The notes beneath the pieces were generated by a model. It was not told the DNA's origin. It searched no databases and was given only the letters and a program-made list of their open reading frames with translations. Positions 3,505 through 10,372 of a stretch of 64,000 nucleotides of DNA are shown here, in pieces. The DNA is from Streptomyces sp. AC555_RSS877 (GTDB taxonomy: Bacteria > Actinomycetota > Actinomycetes > Streptomycetales > Streptomycetaceae), in assembly GCF_019049245.1 (NCBI RefSeq), contig NZ_JAGMUK010000218.1:62001-126000 (forward strand), in the 5' to 3' direction. Within the stretch, counting starts at the first letter, position 1, and every line of letters starts with the position of its first letter. Position numbers and translations under genes: made by a program.

Positions 3505-4332
3505 TCAGCGTTGGGCCAGCAGGCCGTACAGGAGGGGGATGCGCGGCTCGGGGAGCCGCCACCAGCCGGACGGCGTACGGACCATCCGCGGCCAGCGCTG
3601 CCAGGGCAGTTCGTCGCTCTCCCGCAGTCGTCGCACGGTCAGTCCCGCTCCCGTCAACGCGCCGACGACCTCTCCTATTCCGTGCATCCACTCGTAGCTG
3701 TCGGTGGCGCCCTGGACGGGCGGGCCGTCGGTGTAGGTGTGGGTCGCGTCCCGGCGTACGGGGCCCTCGCCGCCCAGGTAGTTGTGGCGCAGCAGCAGCT
3801 CGGGTCCCTCGCCGGGGGCGGGCTTGGGGCCCAGCGAGTTGAGCAGCGGATGGAACTCGACGATGTACAACCGGCCTCCGGGACGCAGGAGTTGGGCCAC
3901 GACCCCCGCCCAGCGCTCCAGGTCGGGCAGGTAGCACAGGGCGCCCTTGCCGGTGTAGACGACGTCGAACCGCCGTCCTTCCAGGGCCTCGACGGCGTCG
4001 TAGACGTTCGCGCACACGTACCCGACGTCCAGCCCCGCCTTGGCCGCGATGTCGTTCGCCGCCGCCACGGACGCCTCGGAGAAGTCGAGGCCGACGGCCC
4101 GGGCCCCGCGCCGGGCGAAGGCGAGCGTCTCGGTGCCGAGGTGGCACTGCAGATGGAGCACGTCGCGGCCGGCGAGGTCACCCAGGTCGTCCCACTCGAA
4201 GGCGCCGAACCAGCGCTCGGGGTCGAGGTCCTGGTCGAGTCCGTAGAACCGGCTGGCGAGGTGGACGGGGGTGCGGGCGTCCCAGTTCGCCCGGTTGACC
4301 CGCATCAGCCGCTCGTGCTCGTCGGTGGTCAT
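3505..4332 (-). CDS. Class I SAM-dependent methyltransferase
   Basis: A soluble 275-residue protein with the Rossmann methyltransferase fold. Motif I appears as VLHLQCHLGTETL followed by GLDFSEASV, which resembles the SAM-binding loop and acidic post-I strand; later come YTGKGALCYLPD (motif IV region) and LLRPGGRLYIVEFHP (post-motif). The ATG at 4332 gives a natural start MTTDEHERL, while the longer upstream frame runs into the divergent operon's promoter. The substrate cannot be told from sequence. It is convergent with nothing and sits between rho and the divergent ECF42 operon, with 169 bases to the next start. Confidence 0.8.
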   Translation of the reverse strand: MTTDEHERLMRVNRANWDARTPVHLASRFYGLDQDLDPERWFGAFEWDDLGDLAGRDVLHLQCHLGTETLAFARRGARAVGLDFSEASVAAANDIAAKAGLDVGYVCANVYDAVEALEGRRFDVVYTGKGALCYLPDLERWAGVVAQLLRPGGRLYIVEFHPLLNSLGPKPAPGEGPELLLRHNYLGGEGPVRRDATHTYTDGPPVQGATDSYEWMHGIGEVVGALTGAGLTVRRLRESDELPWQRWPRMVRTPSGWWRLPEPRIPLLYGLLAQR

Positions 4333-4436
4333 GACGGCATCCAACCGTGAACGGTCCCGGACCACCAGCCAGAGGGAAGCGGCGGCGGGCCCGCCCTTCG
4401 CCCCGGCCTCCTTTCGTACGACTCGTGCGACCGGCA

Positions 4437-4463
4437 TGTCGATTTCGCGGGGTCCCGTTCGTC
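4437..4463 (+). promoter_or_regulatory. Predicted ECF42 promoter of the DGPF-sigma operon
   Basis: TGTCGA (4437-4442), a 17-base spacer, then CGTC (4460-4463), followed by GGTGG. This matches the promoter type reported for ECF42 sigma factors (TGTCGA in the -35 region, CGA/TC in the -10 region) and lies 39 bases before the first gene of the operon that encodes such a sigma factor. The first gene has a good ribosome site, GGGAGGA. Autoregulation is the usual arrangement in this group. Confidence 0.75.
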
Positions 4464-4501
4464 GGTGGGGTGTAGGAAGCTCAAGAGCACCGGGAGGACC
4501 C

Positions 4502-5221
4502 ATGAAGTACATGCTGCTCGTCTGCGGTGACGACACCGCCGACGCCTCGGGGATGGCTCCCGTCGAGCCCTGGGTCGAAGGGCTCGGCGACCGCGGCGTA
4601 CGACTGCACGGCCACCGGCTGGCCCTGCCCACCGACGCCGTCACCGTCCGGGTGCGCGACGGCGAAGTGCTGCGCACCGACGGGCCGTTCGCGGAGACCA
4701 AGGAGTATGTCGCGGGCTTCGACGTGCTGGAGTGCGACAGTCTTCAGGAGGCGATCGAGGCGGCCGCCCAGCACCCGGTGGCGGCCATCGGGGCCATGGA
4801 GGTGCGCCCCTTCTGGGAGGACGAGGACCACGAGGGCGAGATCCGCCGGCTCGACGCCGAACTCACCGCGGCGGCCCGCGAACGTGACGTCGACCGACTG
4901 CTGGCCTGCTACGCGCCGGACGTCGAGGCCTTCCACCTGGCCACCGGTCAGGAACCGCACGGCATCGACGCCTTCCGCAAGGCGGCGGACGCGGTGTTCG
5001 CGTCCGTTGACGGGCCCGTCACCCGCGAGGTGCTGGAGTTCCGCGTCCATGTCGACGAGAGCATCGCCTTCGGCCACGCCCTCGTGCGGCTGCGCGCCCC
5101 CCGCGCGGACGGCGAACCACTGGACGACATGGTGCGCGTGACCACCGGCTACCGGAACATCGGGCCGCGCTGGGTGATCGCCCACGAGCACGTGTCGGTC
5201 GCGCTGGAAGGACGGCCGTGA
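4502..5221 (+). CDS. DGPF (YCII-related) protein fused to a SnoaL-like domain
   Basis: A 239-residue soluble protein. Residues about 1-105 form a YCII-related domain: it opens MKYMLLVCGDD and contains the diagnostic DGPFAETKEY motif. Residues about 120-238 form a SnoaL/NTF2-like domain (RDVDRLLACYAPD start). DGPF proteins are the standard neighbours of ECF42 sigma factors, though their biochemical role is not established; the SnoaL half suggests binding of a small ligand. It is the first gene of a three-gene operon and overlaps the next gene by 4 bases. A start upstream of 4502 would cross the predicted promoter, so the ATG behind GGGAGGA was chosen. Confidence 0.85.
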   Translation: MKYMLLVCGDDTADASGMAPVEPWVEGLGDRGVRLHGHRLALPTDAVTVRVRDGEVLRTDGPFAETKEYVAGFDVLECDSLQEAIEAAAQHPVAAIGAMEVRPFWEDEDHEGEIRRLDAELTAAARERDVDRLLACYAPDVEAFHLATGQEPHGIDAFRKAADAVFASVDGPVTREVLEFRVHVDESIAFGHALVRLRAPRADGEPLDDMVRVTTGYRNIGPRWVIAHEHVSVALEGRP

Positions 5222-5499
5222 AGTACCTGCTGTTCGTCTGTCTGCCGGCGGGCGCCGAGGACGCACGCCCCTTCGACGGGGCCACCGCGCGTCTGCGCCC
5301 GCCGGACGACGCGACCACCGTGCGGGTCGAGGACGACGAAGTCCTGCTCAGTGACGGGCCGTTCACCGGGGACGACGCGTACGTGACCGCGGTCGACCTC
5401 GTCGAGGCCGACGACCTGGACGAGGCGATCGCGCTCGCCGCCCGGCACTCCTGCCTGGTCCGCGGCGGTCCGGTGGAGGTGCGGCCGGTCTGGGAGTGA
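5218..5499 (+). CDS. DGPF (YCII-related) domain protein
   Basis: A 93-residue single-domain YCII-related protein starting MKYLLFVCLPAG (GTG start overlapping the previous stop as GTGA) and carrying SDGPFTGDDAYV, the family's DGPF motif. Similar in length to other stand-alone DGPF proteins. It sits between the DGPF-SnoaL fusion and the ECF42 sigma gene, with 4-base overlaps at both ends, so the three products are almost certainly translationally coupled. A signalling role toward the sigma factor is inferred from the conserved gene context only. Confidence 0.83.
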   Translation: MKYLLFVCLPAGAEDARPFDGATARLRPPDDATTVRVEDDEVLLSDGPFTGDDAYVTAVDLVEADDLDEAIALAARHSCLVRGGPVEVRPVWE

Positions 5500-6758
5500 A
5501 CAAGGGGCGCGCGGCGAACGACGTCGAGAAAGCGGTCGCCGCCGCCTTCCGTGAGGAATGGGGCCAGGTCGTCGCCACCCTGATCAGGGTGACCGGCGAC
5601 TGGGACCTCGCCGAGGAGTGCGCCCAGGACGCCTTCGCCCAGGCCCTCGGCCGGTGGCGCCGTGACGGGGTGCCGCTCCGCCCCGGTGCCTGGCTGACGA
5701 CGACCGCCCGCAACCGGGCCGTCGACGTACGGCGCCGGGAGGCGGTGGGCGCGGAGAAGCTGAGGGAGGTGGCGGTGCTGGCGCGGGACGAGCCGTCGTA
5801 CGAGGGCGAGGGTGAGGACGGCGGGGTGGGGGACGACCGGCTGCGGCTCATCTTCACCTGCTGTCACCCGGCGCTGCCGATCGAGGCCCGGGTCGCGCTG
5901 ACGCTGCGCACGCTCGCCGGGCTCACCACACCGGAGATCGCCCGCGCCTTCCTCGTCCCCGAGGCGACCATGGCGCAACGCCTGGTGCGGGCCAAGCGGA
6001 AGATCCGCAACGCCGGCATCCCGTACCGCGTGCCGCCCGCCCATCTGCTGCCCGAACGGACGACCGGTGTGCTCGGCGTGGTCTACCTCCTCTTCAACGA
6101 GGGGTACGCGGCCACGTCCGGCGCCGATCGCGTCCGGGCGAACCTCTGCGCCGAGGCGGTCCGGCTGGCCCGAGTCCTGGCCCGCCTCATGCCGGACGAG
6201 CCCGAGGTGCTCGGTCTGCTCGCCCTCCTGCTGCTGCACGACGCCCGCCGGGCCACCCGGGTGGACGCGGCCGGCGATCCGGTGAGCCTGGAGGACCAGG
6301 ACCGTACGGTGTGGGACCGGGCGGAGGCCGAGGAGGGCGCCGCCCTGCTGGAGAACGCACTGCGGCGCGGCCGCCCCGGCCCCTACCAGATCCAGGCCGC
6401 CGTCGCCGCCTGCCACACCACCGCACCCACGGCGGCGGAGACCGACTGGGCCGACATCGCCGGGCTGTACGGCGAACTGGAGCGGTTCGTGCCGTCGGCC
6501 GTGGTCCGCCTCAACCGCGCGGTGGCCGTCGGCATGTCGGAGGGGCCGCAAGCGGGCCTCACGCTGGTGGCGGAGCTGGAACGCGAGGGCGAGCTGGCCG
6601 ACTACCACCTGCTGCCCGCCACCCGCGCCGACCTGCTGCGCCGCGCCGGGCGTCCCAGGGAGGCGGCCCAGGCGTACGAGCGGGCGCTGGAGCTCGTGGA
6701 GAACGACGCGGAGCGGCGGTTCCTGGAGCGGCGGCTCGTGGAGTGTCGATCCGCGTAG
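5496..6758 (+). CDS. ECF42-family RNA polymerase sigma factor with TPR-like C-terminal extension
   Basis: A 420-residue extracytoplasmic-function sigma factor. Region 2 lies at about residues 10-80 (RVTGDWDLAEECAQDAFAQA) and region 4 at about 120-180 (EARVALTLRTLAGLTTPEIA). Beyond them is a long extension of more than 200 residues (from VYLLFNEGYAAT onward) rich in TPR-like helices, the hallmark of ECF42 proteins, in which the extension replaces an anti-sigma factor as the control element. No anti-sigma gene is present nearby, in keeping with the group. The gene is coupled to two DGPF genes and is likely autoregulated from 4437-4463. Confidence 0.9.
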   Translation: MNKGRAANDVEKAVAAAFREEWGQVVATLIRVTGDWDLAEECAQDAFAQALGRWRRDGVPLRPGAWLTTTARNRAVDVRRREAVGAEKLREVAVLARDEPSYEGEGEDGGVGDDRLRLIFTCCHPALPIEARVALTLRTLAGLTTPEIARAFLVPEATMAQRLVRAKRKIRNAGIPYRVPPAHLLPERTTGVLGVVYLLFNEGYAATSGADRVRANLCAEAVRLARVLARLMPDEPEVLGLLALLLLHDARRATRVDAAGDPVSLEDQDRTVWDRAEAEEGAALLENALRRGRPGPYQIQAAVAACHTTAPTAAETDWADIAGLYGELERFVPSAVVRLNRAVAVGMSEGPQAGLTLVAELEREGELADYHLLPATRADLLRRAGRPREAAQAYERALELVENDAERRFLERRLVECRSA

Positions 6759-6770
6759 CGGCCGTTCGTC
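6744..6770 (+). promoter_or_regulatory. Second predicted ECF42 promoter at the 3' end of the sigma gene
   Basis: TGTCGA (6744-6749), 17 bases, CGTC (6767-6770), followed by GGTGG. Spacing is the same as at 4437-4463, and the 12 bases around the -10 (GTTCGTCGGTGG) are identical in the two sites. The -35 lies inside the last codons of the sigma gene. It would fire into the 257-base region before the large GAF-PP2C gene, or produce a short RNA from there. Confidence 0.6.
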
Positions 6771-6924
6771 GGTGGAGTGACAACAGCTCCCACCACCGGA
6801 GGCCTGGCTGAGCGCTGTGCGCCGTGATGACCGACCGACGGCACCGGCCGCCCCCGACGCGTACGACGGGCCGGGCACCCCCGACGTCCGGCCGGCGGCG
6901 CTCCGCCTGGGCCGTTGACCGGCA

Positions 6925-6954
6925 TTGTGATGCCAGTCACAGAAGGGCTAGGGT
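6925..6954 (+). promoter_or_regulatory. Promoter with CRP-type palindrome before the GAF-PP2C gene
   Basis: TTGTGA (6925-6930), 18-base spacer, TAGGGT (6949-6954) resembles a vegetative sigma promoter. Overlapping its -35 is TGTGATGCCAGTCACA (6926-6941), a perfect match to TGTGA-N6-TCACA, the binding pattern of CRP-family proteins. Position over the -35 would favour repression unless a further activator site exists upstream. Confidence 0.5.
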
Positions 6955-7027
6955 GAAGTCGCTCGGAGTACGCCGGGCGGCGTGTCGAACCGCGGTGCGC
7001 GACCCGGCCCGTCTCCGGGTGAGGGAA

Positions 7028-10000
7028 GTGATCCCCTTGTCCGTCGCCTGGGACGACATCGGCGGACTCGTCGATGCCCACGAACGTTTCCTGGCCGGGG
7101 CGCTCGTCGACGCCACGGTCCGGGACTCGGTGCTCGACTCCTGGAAACGATGCAGGTCGGCGGGGCTCGAGCCGGACCAGCTGCTGGTCCCGTACGCCCC
7201 GGACCTGATGCTGGAGGACCGGTTCCTGCGCGCCGCCGACCCGGTTCTGGCGGATCTGAGCGCGTCGCTCACCGAGGTCGGCATGACCATCGCTCTCTGC
7301 GACGCGAGAGGCCGCATGGTCCAGCGGCTCGGCGGCGACCGGCAGCTCCGCGACCGCCTCGACGAGGTGCGGTTCGCGCCCGGCTTCGACGCTTCCGAGC
7401 GGGTCGTCGGCACCAACGGCGTCGGCACCGCGCTCGCCGAGCGAAGCCCCGTCTTCGTCGTCGGCCGTGAACACTTCGCCGACTGCCTCCAGCCCTTCGC
7501 CTGCGCCGGAGCGCCCGTCCGCGACCCCTTCAGCGGACGTATCGAGGCCGTCCTCGACCTGACCTGCCTGCGCACCGACAGCGACCCCACCATGCTGCGG
7601 CTGGTCCGCGAGGCCGCCCGCGGCATCGAGGCACGGCTGCTGGAGCAGTCCACGCAGCGCGAGCGGGCGCTGCTCGCGGCGTACCGGCGAGCGGGCCCCG
7701 ACGTGGGCGGGTGGCCGCGCCAGCCCCGACTCGCGGCAGCCGACCTGGGAGACGGCCGCGGCGACGGCGGCCTCGGCCGCATCGACCTGGCAGTACTGCG
7801 GGAGAAGGCCGAGGAACTCCTCGCCTCGCCCCAGCGCACCCTCGACGAGGTCGTCCTGTCCGGCGGCCGTGTCGCCACCTTGCTGCGCCGCCCGGTCATG
7901 GGCGCGGCGGGCGAGACCGGCGTGGTGGTCGAGGCCCGGATCCTCGGCGGACCACGACTGCGCCAGGCCGGATCAGCGGCGGCGGGGACGGGCTCGACGA
8001 GTCTGCCGGAGGCCGGGGTGACCGGGTCCGGATCGATGGTGGCGGGGGTGGCTGCGGCGGGACCGCCAGGGGCCGGGATGACGGCTGCCGAGGTGACGGC
8101 TCTCGGCGTGACGGGGGTCGGATCGGCGGCGGGCCCGCCCGGGGCCGAGGTGACCCCGGCCGGACCCGCCAAGGACGGGGCGCCTTCGGCGGGACCGGCA
8201 GAGGCCGGGATGACGGCTGCCGAGGTGACGGCTCTCGGCGTGACGGGGGTCGGATCGGCGGCGGGCCCGCCCGGGGCCGAGGTGACCCCGGCCGGACCCG
8301 GGGAGGACGGGGCGCTTTCGGCGGGACCGGCAGAGGCCGGGACGACCGCCGCCGGGACGCCCTCGTCCAACAGCGTGACGGACGTGCCGCCCGCACCCGC
8401 GCCGACGGCTGCCCGGGCCCTCGCGGAGGCGCCGGCCGCGCCGGTACCCGTGCCCGCGCCGACCGCGGGCGCCGGCACACTCCTGCCCGCCCCGCCCGCC
8501 AAGCCACCCGTGCCGACCCTGCGCCCGCTCGTCGCCGTGCCGTCCGTGACCGTCCCCGCCGCACCACAACCCGCGCCCGCCGCGGACACCGACTCCTCGT
8601 CGGCCCGCACCCGGCCCGGCGAGGACGACGGCGGGACCGACGACCGCCTGCTGCTCGTCGGCGAGCCGGGGGTCGGTCGGCTCGCCGTGCTGGCCCGCCG
8701 GCGCCTGGAGCTGTTGCACGACGCCGGCGTCCGCATCGGCACCACCCTCGACGTCACGCGCACGGCCGAGGAGCTGACGGAGGTGGCCGTCTCCCGGTTC
8801 GCCGACTTCACGGCCGTGGATCTCCCGGACGCGGTGCTGCAGGGCGACGAGCCGGGCCCGTTCGGATCCGGTGGCCAGTTGCGCCGGATCGCGTTGGGCT
8901 CCGTCCAGAAGGTGCCCTACCTGTACGGCGTCGGCGACCCGGTCCACTACCTGCCGTCCACCCCGCAGGCCCGCAGCCTGGAGAGCAGGCAGTCCGTACT
9001 CGAACCCGTGCTCGTCGAGGCCGAGGGCTGGCTTGCCCAGGACCCGGCACGGCTCGAACAGGTCCTCGCGGCCGGCATCCACTCCCTGATCACCGTGCCG
9101 CTCCGAGCACGCGGTGCGACCCTCGGCGTGGTCAGCTTCTACCGCTCCGAGAAGCCCGCCCCGTTCGAGGAGGACGACCTCTCCCTGGCCCAGGAACTGG
9201 CCGGCCGCGCGGCGATCTGCATCGACAACGCCCGCCGCTACACCCGCGAGCACAACACGGCCCTCGCCCTGCAGCGCAGCCTGCTGCCCCGGGGCCGGCC
9301 CGAGCAGAGCGCCGTCGACGTCGCCTACCGCTATCTGCCCGCGCAGGCCGGGGTGGGCGGCGACTGGTTCGACGTCATCCCGCTCTCCGGCGCCCGGGTC
9401 GCCCTCGTCGTCGGCGACGTCGTCGGCCACGGACTGCACGCCGCCGCCACCATGGGCCGGCTGCGGACCGCCGTACACAACTTCTGCTCCCTGGACCTGC
9501 CGCCCGACGACCTCCTCACCCACCTCGACGACCTGGTCGGACGTCTCGACCGGGGCGAGGGCTGGGCGGTGGACAACAGCCAGGCCGACTGCGGAATCGT
9601 CGGAGCGACCTGTCTGTACGCCGTTTACGATCCGGTGTCCCGGCGCTGCACCCTCACCCGCGCCGGGCACCCCTTCCCCGCCGTCGTCGCCCCCGATGGC
9701 ACGGTGGAGTTCGTCGAGCTGCCCTCGGCGCCGCCGCTCGGACTCGGCGGGATGCCCTTCGAGACCGTCGAGCTGGAGCTGGCCGAAGGCAGCCAACTCG
9801 TCCTCTACACCGACGGCCTGATCGAGGACCGGCACCGGGACATCGACTCCGGCCTCGACCTGCTGCGGACCGTCCTGGCCCATGCCGACCGGGCGCCGGA
9901 GGACACCTGCGAGGCGGTCCTCGACGCCCTGCTGCCGGAGCGGCCCAGCGACGACGTGGCCCTCCTCGTCGCCCGCACGCACGTCCTGGGGCCCGATCAG

Positions 10001-10372
10001 GTCGCCCAGTGGGACCTGCCCAGCGATCCGGCGGTCGTCTCCCGTGCCCGCGCGGCGGTCACCGAGCAGCTGGCCGCCTGGGGCCTGGAGGACCTCGCCT
10101 TCTGCACCGAACTCATCGCCAGCGAACTGGTCACCAACGCCATCCGCCATGCCACCGGCCCGGTCCAGCTCCGGCTGCTCCGCGACCGCGCACTCATCTG
10201 CGAGGTCTCCGACGGCAGCAGCACCTCACCCCGGCTGCGCCGCGCCCGCACCGAGGACGAGGGCGGACGCGGCCTCTTCCTCGTCGCCCAGCTCACCGAA
10301 CGCTGGGGGACCCGCTACACCCCGAACGCCAAGATCATCTGGACCGAGCAGCCCCTGCCGCACACCTCATGA
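7028..10372 (+). CDS. Multidomain signalling protein: GAF-type sensor, repeat linker, GAF, PP2C (SpoIIE) phosphatase, HATPase
   Basis: About 1114 residues from the GTG at 7028 (ribosome-site-like GAGGGA just ahead; the GTG at 7019 is an alternative). Order: an N-terminal sensor resembling that of acetoin-type sigma-54 activators (SWKRCRSAGL, then GTNGVGTALAE), about residues 20-215; a low-complexity Ala/Gly/Pro/Thr linker with tandem repeats, about 315-520; a GAF domain, about 555-740; a SpoIIE-type PP2C phosphatase, about 755-985, with GGDWFDVIPL and VVGDVVGHGL metal-binding motifs; and an RsbW-like ATPase, about 995-1100, with the N-box ELVTNAIRHA and GGRGLFLV. One chain thus holds both the kinase and the phosphatase activities of a partner-switching system acting on anti-anti-sigma factors. 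Confidence 0.87.
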   Translation: MIPLSVAWDDIGGLVDAHERFLAGALVDATVRDSVLDSWKRCRSAGLEPDQLLVPYAPDLMLEDRFLRAADPVLADLSASLTEVGMTIALCDARGRMVQRLGGDRQLRDRLDEVRFAPGFDASERVVGTNGVGTALAERSPVFVVGREHFADCLQPFACAGAPVRDPFSGRIEAVLDLTCLRTDSDPTMLRLVREAARGIEARLLEQSTQRERALLAAYRRAGPDVGGWPRQPRLAAADLGDGRGDGGLGRIDLAVLREKAEELLASPQRTLDEVVLSGGRVATLLRRPVMGAAGETGVVVEARILGGPRLRQAGSAAAGTGSTSLPEAGVTGSGSMVAGVAAAGPPGAGMTAAEVTALGVTGVGSAAGPPGAEVTPAGPAKDGAPSAGPAEAGMTAAEVTALGVTGVGSAAGPPGAEVTPAGPGEDGALSAGPAEAGTTAAGTPSSNSVTDVPPAPAPTAARALAEAPAAPVPVPAPTAGAGTLLPAPPAKPPVPTLRPLVAVPSVTVPAAPQPAPAADTDSSSARTRPGEDDGGTDDRLLLVGEPGVGRLAVLARRRLELLHDAGVRIGTTLDVTRTAEELTEVAVSRFADFTAVDLPDAVLQGDEPGPFGSGGQLRRIALGSVQKVPYLYGVGDPVHYLPSTPQARSLESRQSVLEPVLVEAEGWLAQDPARLEQVLAAGIHSLITVPLRARGATLGVVSFYRSEKPAPFEEDDLSLAQELAGRAAICIDNARRYTREHNTALALQRSLLPRGRPEQSAVDVAYRYLPAQAGVGGDWFDVIPLSGARVALVVGDVVGHGLHAAATMGRLRTAVHNFCSLDLPPDDLLTHLDDLVGRLDRGEGWAVDNSQADCGIVGATCLYAVYDPVSRRCTLTRAGHPFPAVVAPDGTVEFVELPSAPPLGLGGMPFETVELELAEGSQLVLYTDGLIEDRHRDIDSGLDLLRTVLAHADRAPEDTCEAVLDALLPERPSDDVALLVARTHVLGPDQVAQWDLPSDPAVVSRARAAVTEQLAAWGLEDLAFCTELIASELVTNAIRHATGPVQLRLLRDRALICEVSDGSSTSPRLRRARTEDEGGRGLFLVAQLTERWGTRYTPNAKIIWTEQPLPHTS
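8071..8334 (+). repeat. Two tandem 132-bp repeats in the linker of the GAF-PP2C gene
   Basis: Units 8071-8202 and 8203-8334 are nearly identical and in frame (44 residues each, containing GMTAAEVTALGVTGVG and GPPGAEVTPAGP); a degenerate third unit begins at 8335. A few substitutions separate the copies (for example PAKDGAPS versus PGEDGALS), indicating a recent duplication in a disordered linker. Confidence 0.93.

Follow-up and report, generated by a model that had tools for sequence, protein, structure and literature searches.

A probable second ECF42-type promoter across the stop codon of a Streptomyces sigma-factor gene precedes a small-protein and transporter unit in relatives

We analysed a 64,000-nucleotide stretch of the genome of Streptomyces sp. 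AC555_RSS877 (RefSeq assembly GCF_019049245.1, contig NZ_JAGMUK010000218.1, positions 62,001 to 126,000; hereafter the window, numbered from its first base), in which an operon of two YCII-type (DGPF) genes and a sigma-factor gene of the ECF42 type lies between two similar promoter-like sites, P1 ahead of the operon and P2 at the 3′ end of the sigma gene. ECF42 is a widespread group of sigma factors for which no protein partner has been identified. P2 is likely a second promoter of the same ECF42 factor, driving a short downstream unit that encodes a small protein, an MFS transporter or both, and in the window this unit appears to have decayed. The reading draws on what the DNA itself displays, namely the two sites and their conservation, the small open reading frame (ORF) behind P2 in relatives, the selection on the tail of its product and the co-occurrence of intact P2 sites with a target; these features suggest, in turn, that P1 and P2 depend on the sigma factor and that the small protein has a function. 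Within the literature searched, three features are new: a promoter that spans the stop codon, a small protein as its target, and the history of loss and retention of that target.

Results

Two similar sites bracket the ECF42 operon

4437 to 4472, + strand: P1, candidate ECF42-type promoter (extended motif) of the YCII-YCII-sigma operon, recognised by motif scans
6744 to 6779, + strand: P2, candidate second ECF42-type promoter spanning the sigma stop codon, recognised by motif scans and conservation

The initial annotation of this DNA had proposed that two ECF42-type promoters bracket the operon, the second at the 3′ end of the sigma gene, and this arrangement was confirmed. The core TGTCGA-N17-CGTC was found at 4437-4463 in P1 (TGTCGATTTCGCGGGGTCCCGTTCGTC) and at 6744-6770 in P2 (TGTCGATCCGCGTAGCGGCCGTTCGTC), exactly where it had been reported and with a spacer of 17 bases in both. 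The sites agree at 25 of 36 bases over their extended length, and the longest identical run, around the -10 element, comprises 14 bases (CCGTTCGTCGGTGG) instead of the 12 claimed. P2 begins within the final sigma codons (E-C-R-S-A-stop), which hold its -35 element; the -10 element and the GGTGGGGTG that follows it lie past the stop codon, in non-coding DNA. We take TGTCGA/CGTC to be the motif of ECF42 factors. Both elements, with the spacing of about 17 bases expected of an ECF42-dependent promoter, are present at both sites, which we infer to be active promoters used by this sigma factor. Support for the motif comes from the part of PMC6180224 that deals with Sinorhizobium meliloti, and by analogy with the start mapped there transcription from P2 would be expected to begin at about 6779. 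A scan of 4300-7200 for terminators and sigma-70 promoters found none.

The short pattern is by itself poor evidence, since the two matches observed in the window (0.30 expected) were equalled by 5 of 100 shuffled versions and the genome contains 21 matches compared to 10 for a reversed control; with one mismatch allowed, the window holds 8 matches (10.1 expected). The genome scan suggested earlier is thus weak with the pattern TGTCGA-N17-CGTC as originally worded, and only an extended form, TGTCGA-N15-TTCGTCGGTGGGGTG, singles out P1 and P2. This form is specific: with up to 3 mismatches the two sites are its sole matches in the 10.4-Mb genome (control, 1), and with up to 2 mismatches it matched 46 of 392 Streptomyces genomes, the control matching a single genome (G202). 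A same-strand pair of extended sites, 2.27-2.43 kb apart, occurs in 25 of the 46. Extended sites at L212, L213 and L214, with 2 mismatches each, look like chance.

That P2 itself is a chance or merely coding match has some appeal, as its -35 half falls in sigma codons and two short-pattern matches were reached in some of the shuffles. However, coding constraint cannot account for the whole of P2 because its -10 element and the bases after it lie beyond the stop codon, and the extended motif returns at the same spot in related genomes where control matches are nearly nil. A chance origin was rejected on the specificity of the extended motif in this genome and in the 392 Streptomyces genomes, together with the conservation in 47 loci described below, and its probability is close to negligible.

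P1 is retained throughout the orthologous loci and P2 in a part of them

Loci found through protein similarity alone carried P1 in every case (12/12 and 8/8 loci; 19/19 distinct genomes, L052 and G097 being counted as one), and P2, with TGTCGA and CGTC both intact, in 4/12 and 4/8 of them. In a wider set of 47 orthologous loci, most of them found through the motif, P1 was present within 4 mismatches in all 47 and P2 was intact in 31. In 28 of these 31 loci the distance from P2 to the sigma gene's last base is exactly 14 bases; other distances were seen in L170 and L185, where the sigma frame continues, and in L087, whose sigma frame is broken in the record and whose P2 was scored as intact by hand. 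Two loci (L053 and L180) have a P2 spacer of 16 bases. The set of 47 includes the near-identical L058 and L187. It leaves out L188 and L197 (another ECF42 sub-group), L184 (truncated sigma gene), L209 (67% identity, used as the outgroup of the tree), L052 (= G097), L054 (taken as the same genome as G207/L191), and L172 and L207, which gave no sigma match and in whose stretches no sigma ortholog was found when sought. L172 and L207, along with L210 and L211, have P1-type sites ahead of YCII genes of the MKYMLL type.

Among 69 more distant ECF42 loci, a relaxed motif detected a P2-type site behind one (in-gene control window, 0/69), and a site within 1.5 kb upstream was seen in 21 of 63; this count skipped loci with an unclear stop or too little downstream DNA, and L113 was not entered. 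Judged from these sequences, the second promoter spanning the sigma stop codon is lineage-specific.

Intact P2 sites precede a small ORF, a transporter or both

Behind P2, relatives have a purine-rich ribosome-binding site (GGAG, GAGG or AGGA) and then a small ORF of 35-128 codons, which starts 36-47 nt behind the -10 element in most loci and 76-104 nt behind it in four. The predicted protein has a variable, basic and proline-rich body and an end, (T/A)PDVWLAGLRLGG, that shows few changes. The small ORF is present in 23 of the 47 loci, an MFS transporter behind P2 in 14 and both in 9 (the family, MFS_1, was assigned by a domain test of one transporter and the rest were recognised by tblastn; L053, whose small ORF has a truncated tail, was scored as lacking it). 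The transporter stands behind P2 with no small ORF in L167, L186 and L198. A target of one or both kinds stands behind 28 of the 31 intact P2 sites and behind none of the 16 broken ones (Fisher 6e-10, ignoring kinship). A quick tree of 48 rows implies that P2 changed at least 12 times, the small ORF at least 10 times and the transporter at least 9 times, and 5 independent pairs on well-supported branches gave on average 4.4 in agreement and none in disagreement (median p = 0.0625).

Decay of the unit was also seen. L199 and L200 contain remnants in which the small-ORF tail lies close behind, or is fused to, the sigma end; in L200 (G068) the sigma protein ends in LAELRLGG, the apparent result of a deletion fusing it to the small-ORF tail. 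G049 (L184) has an intact small ORF and P2 next to a sigma gene that is cut to its C-terminal third, P1 and P2 being only 756 bp apart.

The tail of the small protein is conserved with and without the transporter

In an alignment of the last 12 codons (25 rows, including the remnant L199), differences per site were 0.099, 0.052 and 0.404 at codon positions 1, 2 and 3, respectively, with a tail Trp conserved in 25/25 rows and a Leu in 24/25. A leader peptide that merely tunes translation of the transporter is one way to explain a small ORF in this position. In 8 of the 9 loci with both genes the ribosome-binding site of the transporter lies inside the last small-ORF codons, with stop and start almost touching, and a variable body with a conserved tail would also suit an arrest peptide. 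Conservation of a leader is expected only where the regulated gene follows, yet the transporter is missing from 15 of the 24 loci that have the small ORF, and only 2 of these 15 keep its ribosome-binding site. Selection on the tail nevertheless persists: counted from the stop, codons 3-12 show 0.038, 0.058 and 0.365 differences per site in the transporter-less loci (14 of 15, L058 being left out as near-identical to L187). In the same loci the adjoining linker drifts, with 0.468, 0.556 and 0.614. By this codon pattern the tail is under purifying selection as a peptide even without the transporter, and because its codons are conserved there while the linker drifts, it appears to be kept for the peptide and not only as a transporter leader. 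Since a leader role also leaves the transporter of L167, L186 and L198 without a leader, we disfavour it as the sole role of the small ORF and regard it as quite improbable.

The small-protein gene is, in the genomes searched, nearly confined to these ECF42 loci. A DNA pattern for the tail (PDxWLA[GA]LRL) with at most 1 mismatch occurred in 24 of 392 Streptomyces genomes, of which 22 carry it at the ECF42 locus (including a remnant in G109); the other two are G338, a syntenic genome that has lost the operon, and G266, where it lies inside an unrelated frame. Because the reversed pattern matched 8 genomes, a single match carries little weight and its position is decisive. With no mismatch, the pattern was found in one of 197 class-wide genomes (181 of them outside the genus), G095, again at the ECF42 locus, and a peptide regular expression run over L059-L131 retrieved only L087, a Streptomyces ortholog. 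The four of 24 members scanned against Pfam gave no match above cut-off (one weak match, HrpB1_HrpK, E = 0.13, was far under it), and the three scanned against NCBIfam gave no match. Neither the small protein nor its tail motif is named in the literature searched, which does not extend to the original S. venezuelae ECF42 study. The small protein is possibly a new family.

In the window the unit behind P2 has probably decayed

6798 to 6918, + strand: remnant small ORF (GGAGG at 6798-6802, open frame 6808-6918, LSAVRRDDRPTAPAAPDAYDGPGTPDVRPAALRLGR), recognised by alignment with relatives

The remnant can be aligned to the small ORF of the syntenic G338, which is intact there and has 11 codons that the window lacks; CTG replaces the ATG start and Arg-Pro replaces the conserved Trp-Leu of the tail. 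No transporter was found by tblastn behind P2 in the window. The sequence suggests that P2 is probably the still-intact promoter of a decayed unit and, with no transporter and a decayed small ORF behind it, that it would most likely yield a short, near-empty transcript. The initial annotation came close in naming a short RNA as one possible product, but relatives encode a small protein at this place, decayed in this genome. The locus would then illustrate a regulatory link in decay, with a promoter that outlives its target. Alternatively, the window might still produce the small protein, with an altered tail, from CTG 6808 or GTG 6817. In favour of this are an uninterrupted frame of 36 codons, the retained GGAGG and an intact P2; against it stand the loss of the ATG, of the 11 codons and of the Trp-Leu pair, and an open frame of 36 codons should not be rare at this G+C content. 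We consider continued production unlikely.

The GAF-PP2C-ATPase gene is probably not the target of P2

6926 to 6954, + strand: palindrome TGTGATGCCAGTCACA and TAGGGT, conserved between the window and G338, possible promoter region of the gene downstream
7028 to 10372, + strand: GAF-SpoIIE(PP2C)-HATPase gene (Pfam GAF, SpoIIE and HATPase_c_2), likely start at 7028, outside the conserved P2 unit

The initial annotation had favoured a sigma-driven downstream unit, and this idea is borne out by P2 and its targets in relatives; its choice of target is not. According to it, P2 would place the GAF-PP2C-ATPase gene under the ECF42 factor and so join an ECF42 circuit to a partner-switching circuit, and indeed this gene comes next on that strand, about 260 nt past P2, and no terminator-like site separates the two. 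A search of 54 other stretches, two of them without the sigma gene, some near-duplicates and some ending early, nevertheless retrieved no homologue (tblastn, E ≤ 1e-10). Furthermore, G338, whose flanks on both sides are syntenic with those of the window, no longer has the ECF42 operon (the best match to this sigma factor anywhere in that genome is 52% identical) or any recognisable -35 element of P2, but retains both an intact small ORF and the GAF-PP2C gene with the conserved region 6926-6954. We therefore rejected the gene as a target of P2, a link that we hold to be very improbable. The gene probably has its own promoter near 6926-6954, because the palindrome, which we take to resemble a CRP-type site, and TAGGGT just upstream are conserved between the window and G338. 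Read-through from P2 is possible and would be incidental. Within the encoded protein we observed a near-identical internal repeat (window positions about 8222-8353; 91% over 44 residues).

The operon and its sigma factor

4502 to 5221, + strand: YCII (DGPF)-SnoaL fusion protein, 239 aa (Pfam YCII and SnoaL_3 above cut-off)
5218 to 5499, + strand: second YCII-like protein, 93 aa (Pfam YCII 21.1 bits, under the 24-bit cut-off)
5496 to 6758, + strand: ECF42-type sigma factor, 420 aa, with a predicted helical-repeat (TPR-like) C-terminal extension (Pfam, structure model, Foldseek)

The sigma protein matched Sigma70_r2 (38.8 bits), Sigma70_r4_2 (42.5 bits) and DUF6596 above the Pfam cut-offs, and TPR families below them. 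A structure model built from 50 sequences (pLDDT 85) places helical repeats over residues 186-419, in line with the TPR-rich C-terminal extension of about 200 residues that characterises ECF42 factors; compared with solved structures by Foldseek, its best matches were TPR proteins, none at E ≤ 0.001. The gene is adjoined by YCII (DGPF) genes, as is usual for the group, the one at 4502-5221 scoring above the cut-off and the one at 5218-5499 below. The protein fits ECF42 by architecture and context, which, and not the published group profile, are the basis of the assignment.

Discussion

In the model that we propose, the active sigma factor would transcribe its own operon from P1 and a short adjoining unit from P2, which is laid over the 3′ end of the sigma gene. 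In this Streptomyces clade the P2 unit would consist of the small-protein gene, to which a subset of loci adds a translationally coupled MFS transporter, while a few have the transporter alone. Several observations weigh against this model. Motif-based discovery of most of the 47 loci inflates the conservation of the sites, the figure for P2 among genomes found by protein alone being 8 of 19. P2 is broken or lost in 16/47 orthologous loci; absence of the 6744 site in close relatives had been named beforehand as refuting, and the outcome is mixed, as some have it (31/47) and others have lost it. P2 is not general among ECF42 factors, being absent behind 68 of the 69 distant genes. With only 5 pairs, the independent-pairs test does not reach 0.05. 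L168, L179 and the window have P2 without a recognised target, and in both G338 and G049 the small ORF persists although an intact ortholog of this sigma factor is missing.

As a type, an additional ECF42 promoter at the sigma locus has been seen before: S. meliloti offers a precedent. According to the sections of PMC6180224 consulted, over-expression of the ECF42 factor RpoE10 raises SMc01149-SMc01148, numbered next after rpoE10, whose promoter reads TGTCGG-N17-CGTC with a mapped start 9 nt behind it. The SMc01151-rpoE10 operon resembles the window in that a YCII gene adjoins the ECF42 gene and a further ECF42 promoter lies at the locus. In contrast to the relatives studied here, the targets described there are predicted hydrophobic-ligand and glyoxylase-like proteins with no small protein among them, a promoter crossing the sigma stop codon is not described in these sections, and the YCII-sigma operon did not respond to RpoE10 (PMC6180224). 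The S. venezuelae factors Sven_0747, Sven_4377 and Sven_7131 likewise combine sigma2-sigma4 regions and a TPR extension with YCII genes nearby, and the summary of them in PMC8999054 mentions neither a second promoter nor a small protein.

Sites of the same kind occur behind other ECF42 genes, each ahead of a separate unit as predicted target. In another Streptomyces sub-group (L034/L209, L188, L197) an exact extended site lies 28-41 nt behind the sigma stop and precedes a DUF899-type gene (L034 2776-3577, = L209; one gene was tested and two were assigned by resemblance). In Actinophytocola oryzae (L079), the sole one of the 69 distant loci with a site there, a similar site lies right behind the sigma stop, ahead of an MDMPI_N gene. 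Unlike P2, which spans the stop codon, these sites lie 1-41 nt past it and have targets from other families.

TPR domains bind C-terminal tails in other systems. It is conceivable, though in our view rather unlikely, that this ECF42 sub-group has its missing partner in the small protein: the sigma factor would induce it through P2, and its conserved C-terminal peptide would bind the TPR extension of the sigma factor and set the level or the end of the response, closing a peptide feedback loop that originates at the stop codon of the regulator itself. For most of the ECF42 extension no partners have been identified, according to PMC8999054. Retention of the small ORF in G338 and G049 counts against a feedback role exclusive to this sigma factor, unless the losses there are recent or the role is served by other ECF42 factors. 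If it does act on the sigma factor, the small protein would be the missing ECF42 partner; otherwise it would be a defined and testable ECF42 output beside the transporter.

In A. oryzae L079, sites were found at 7238 and 11123, the second about 4 kb further on, at an ORF that resembles alpha/beta-hydrolases by eye. In the genome of the window, L017 (G000:C196:562698-562724) has TGTCGA-N17-CGTC about 50 nt before another YCII-like ORF and is possibly a second ECF42-type locus of the same genome.

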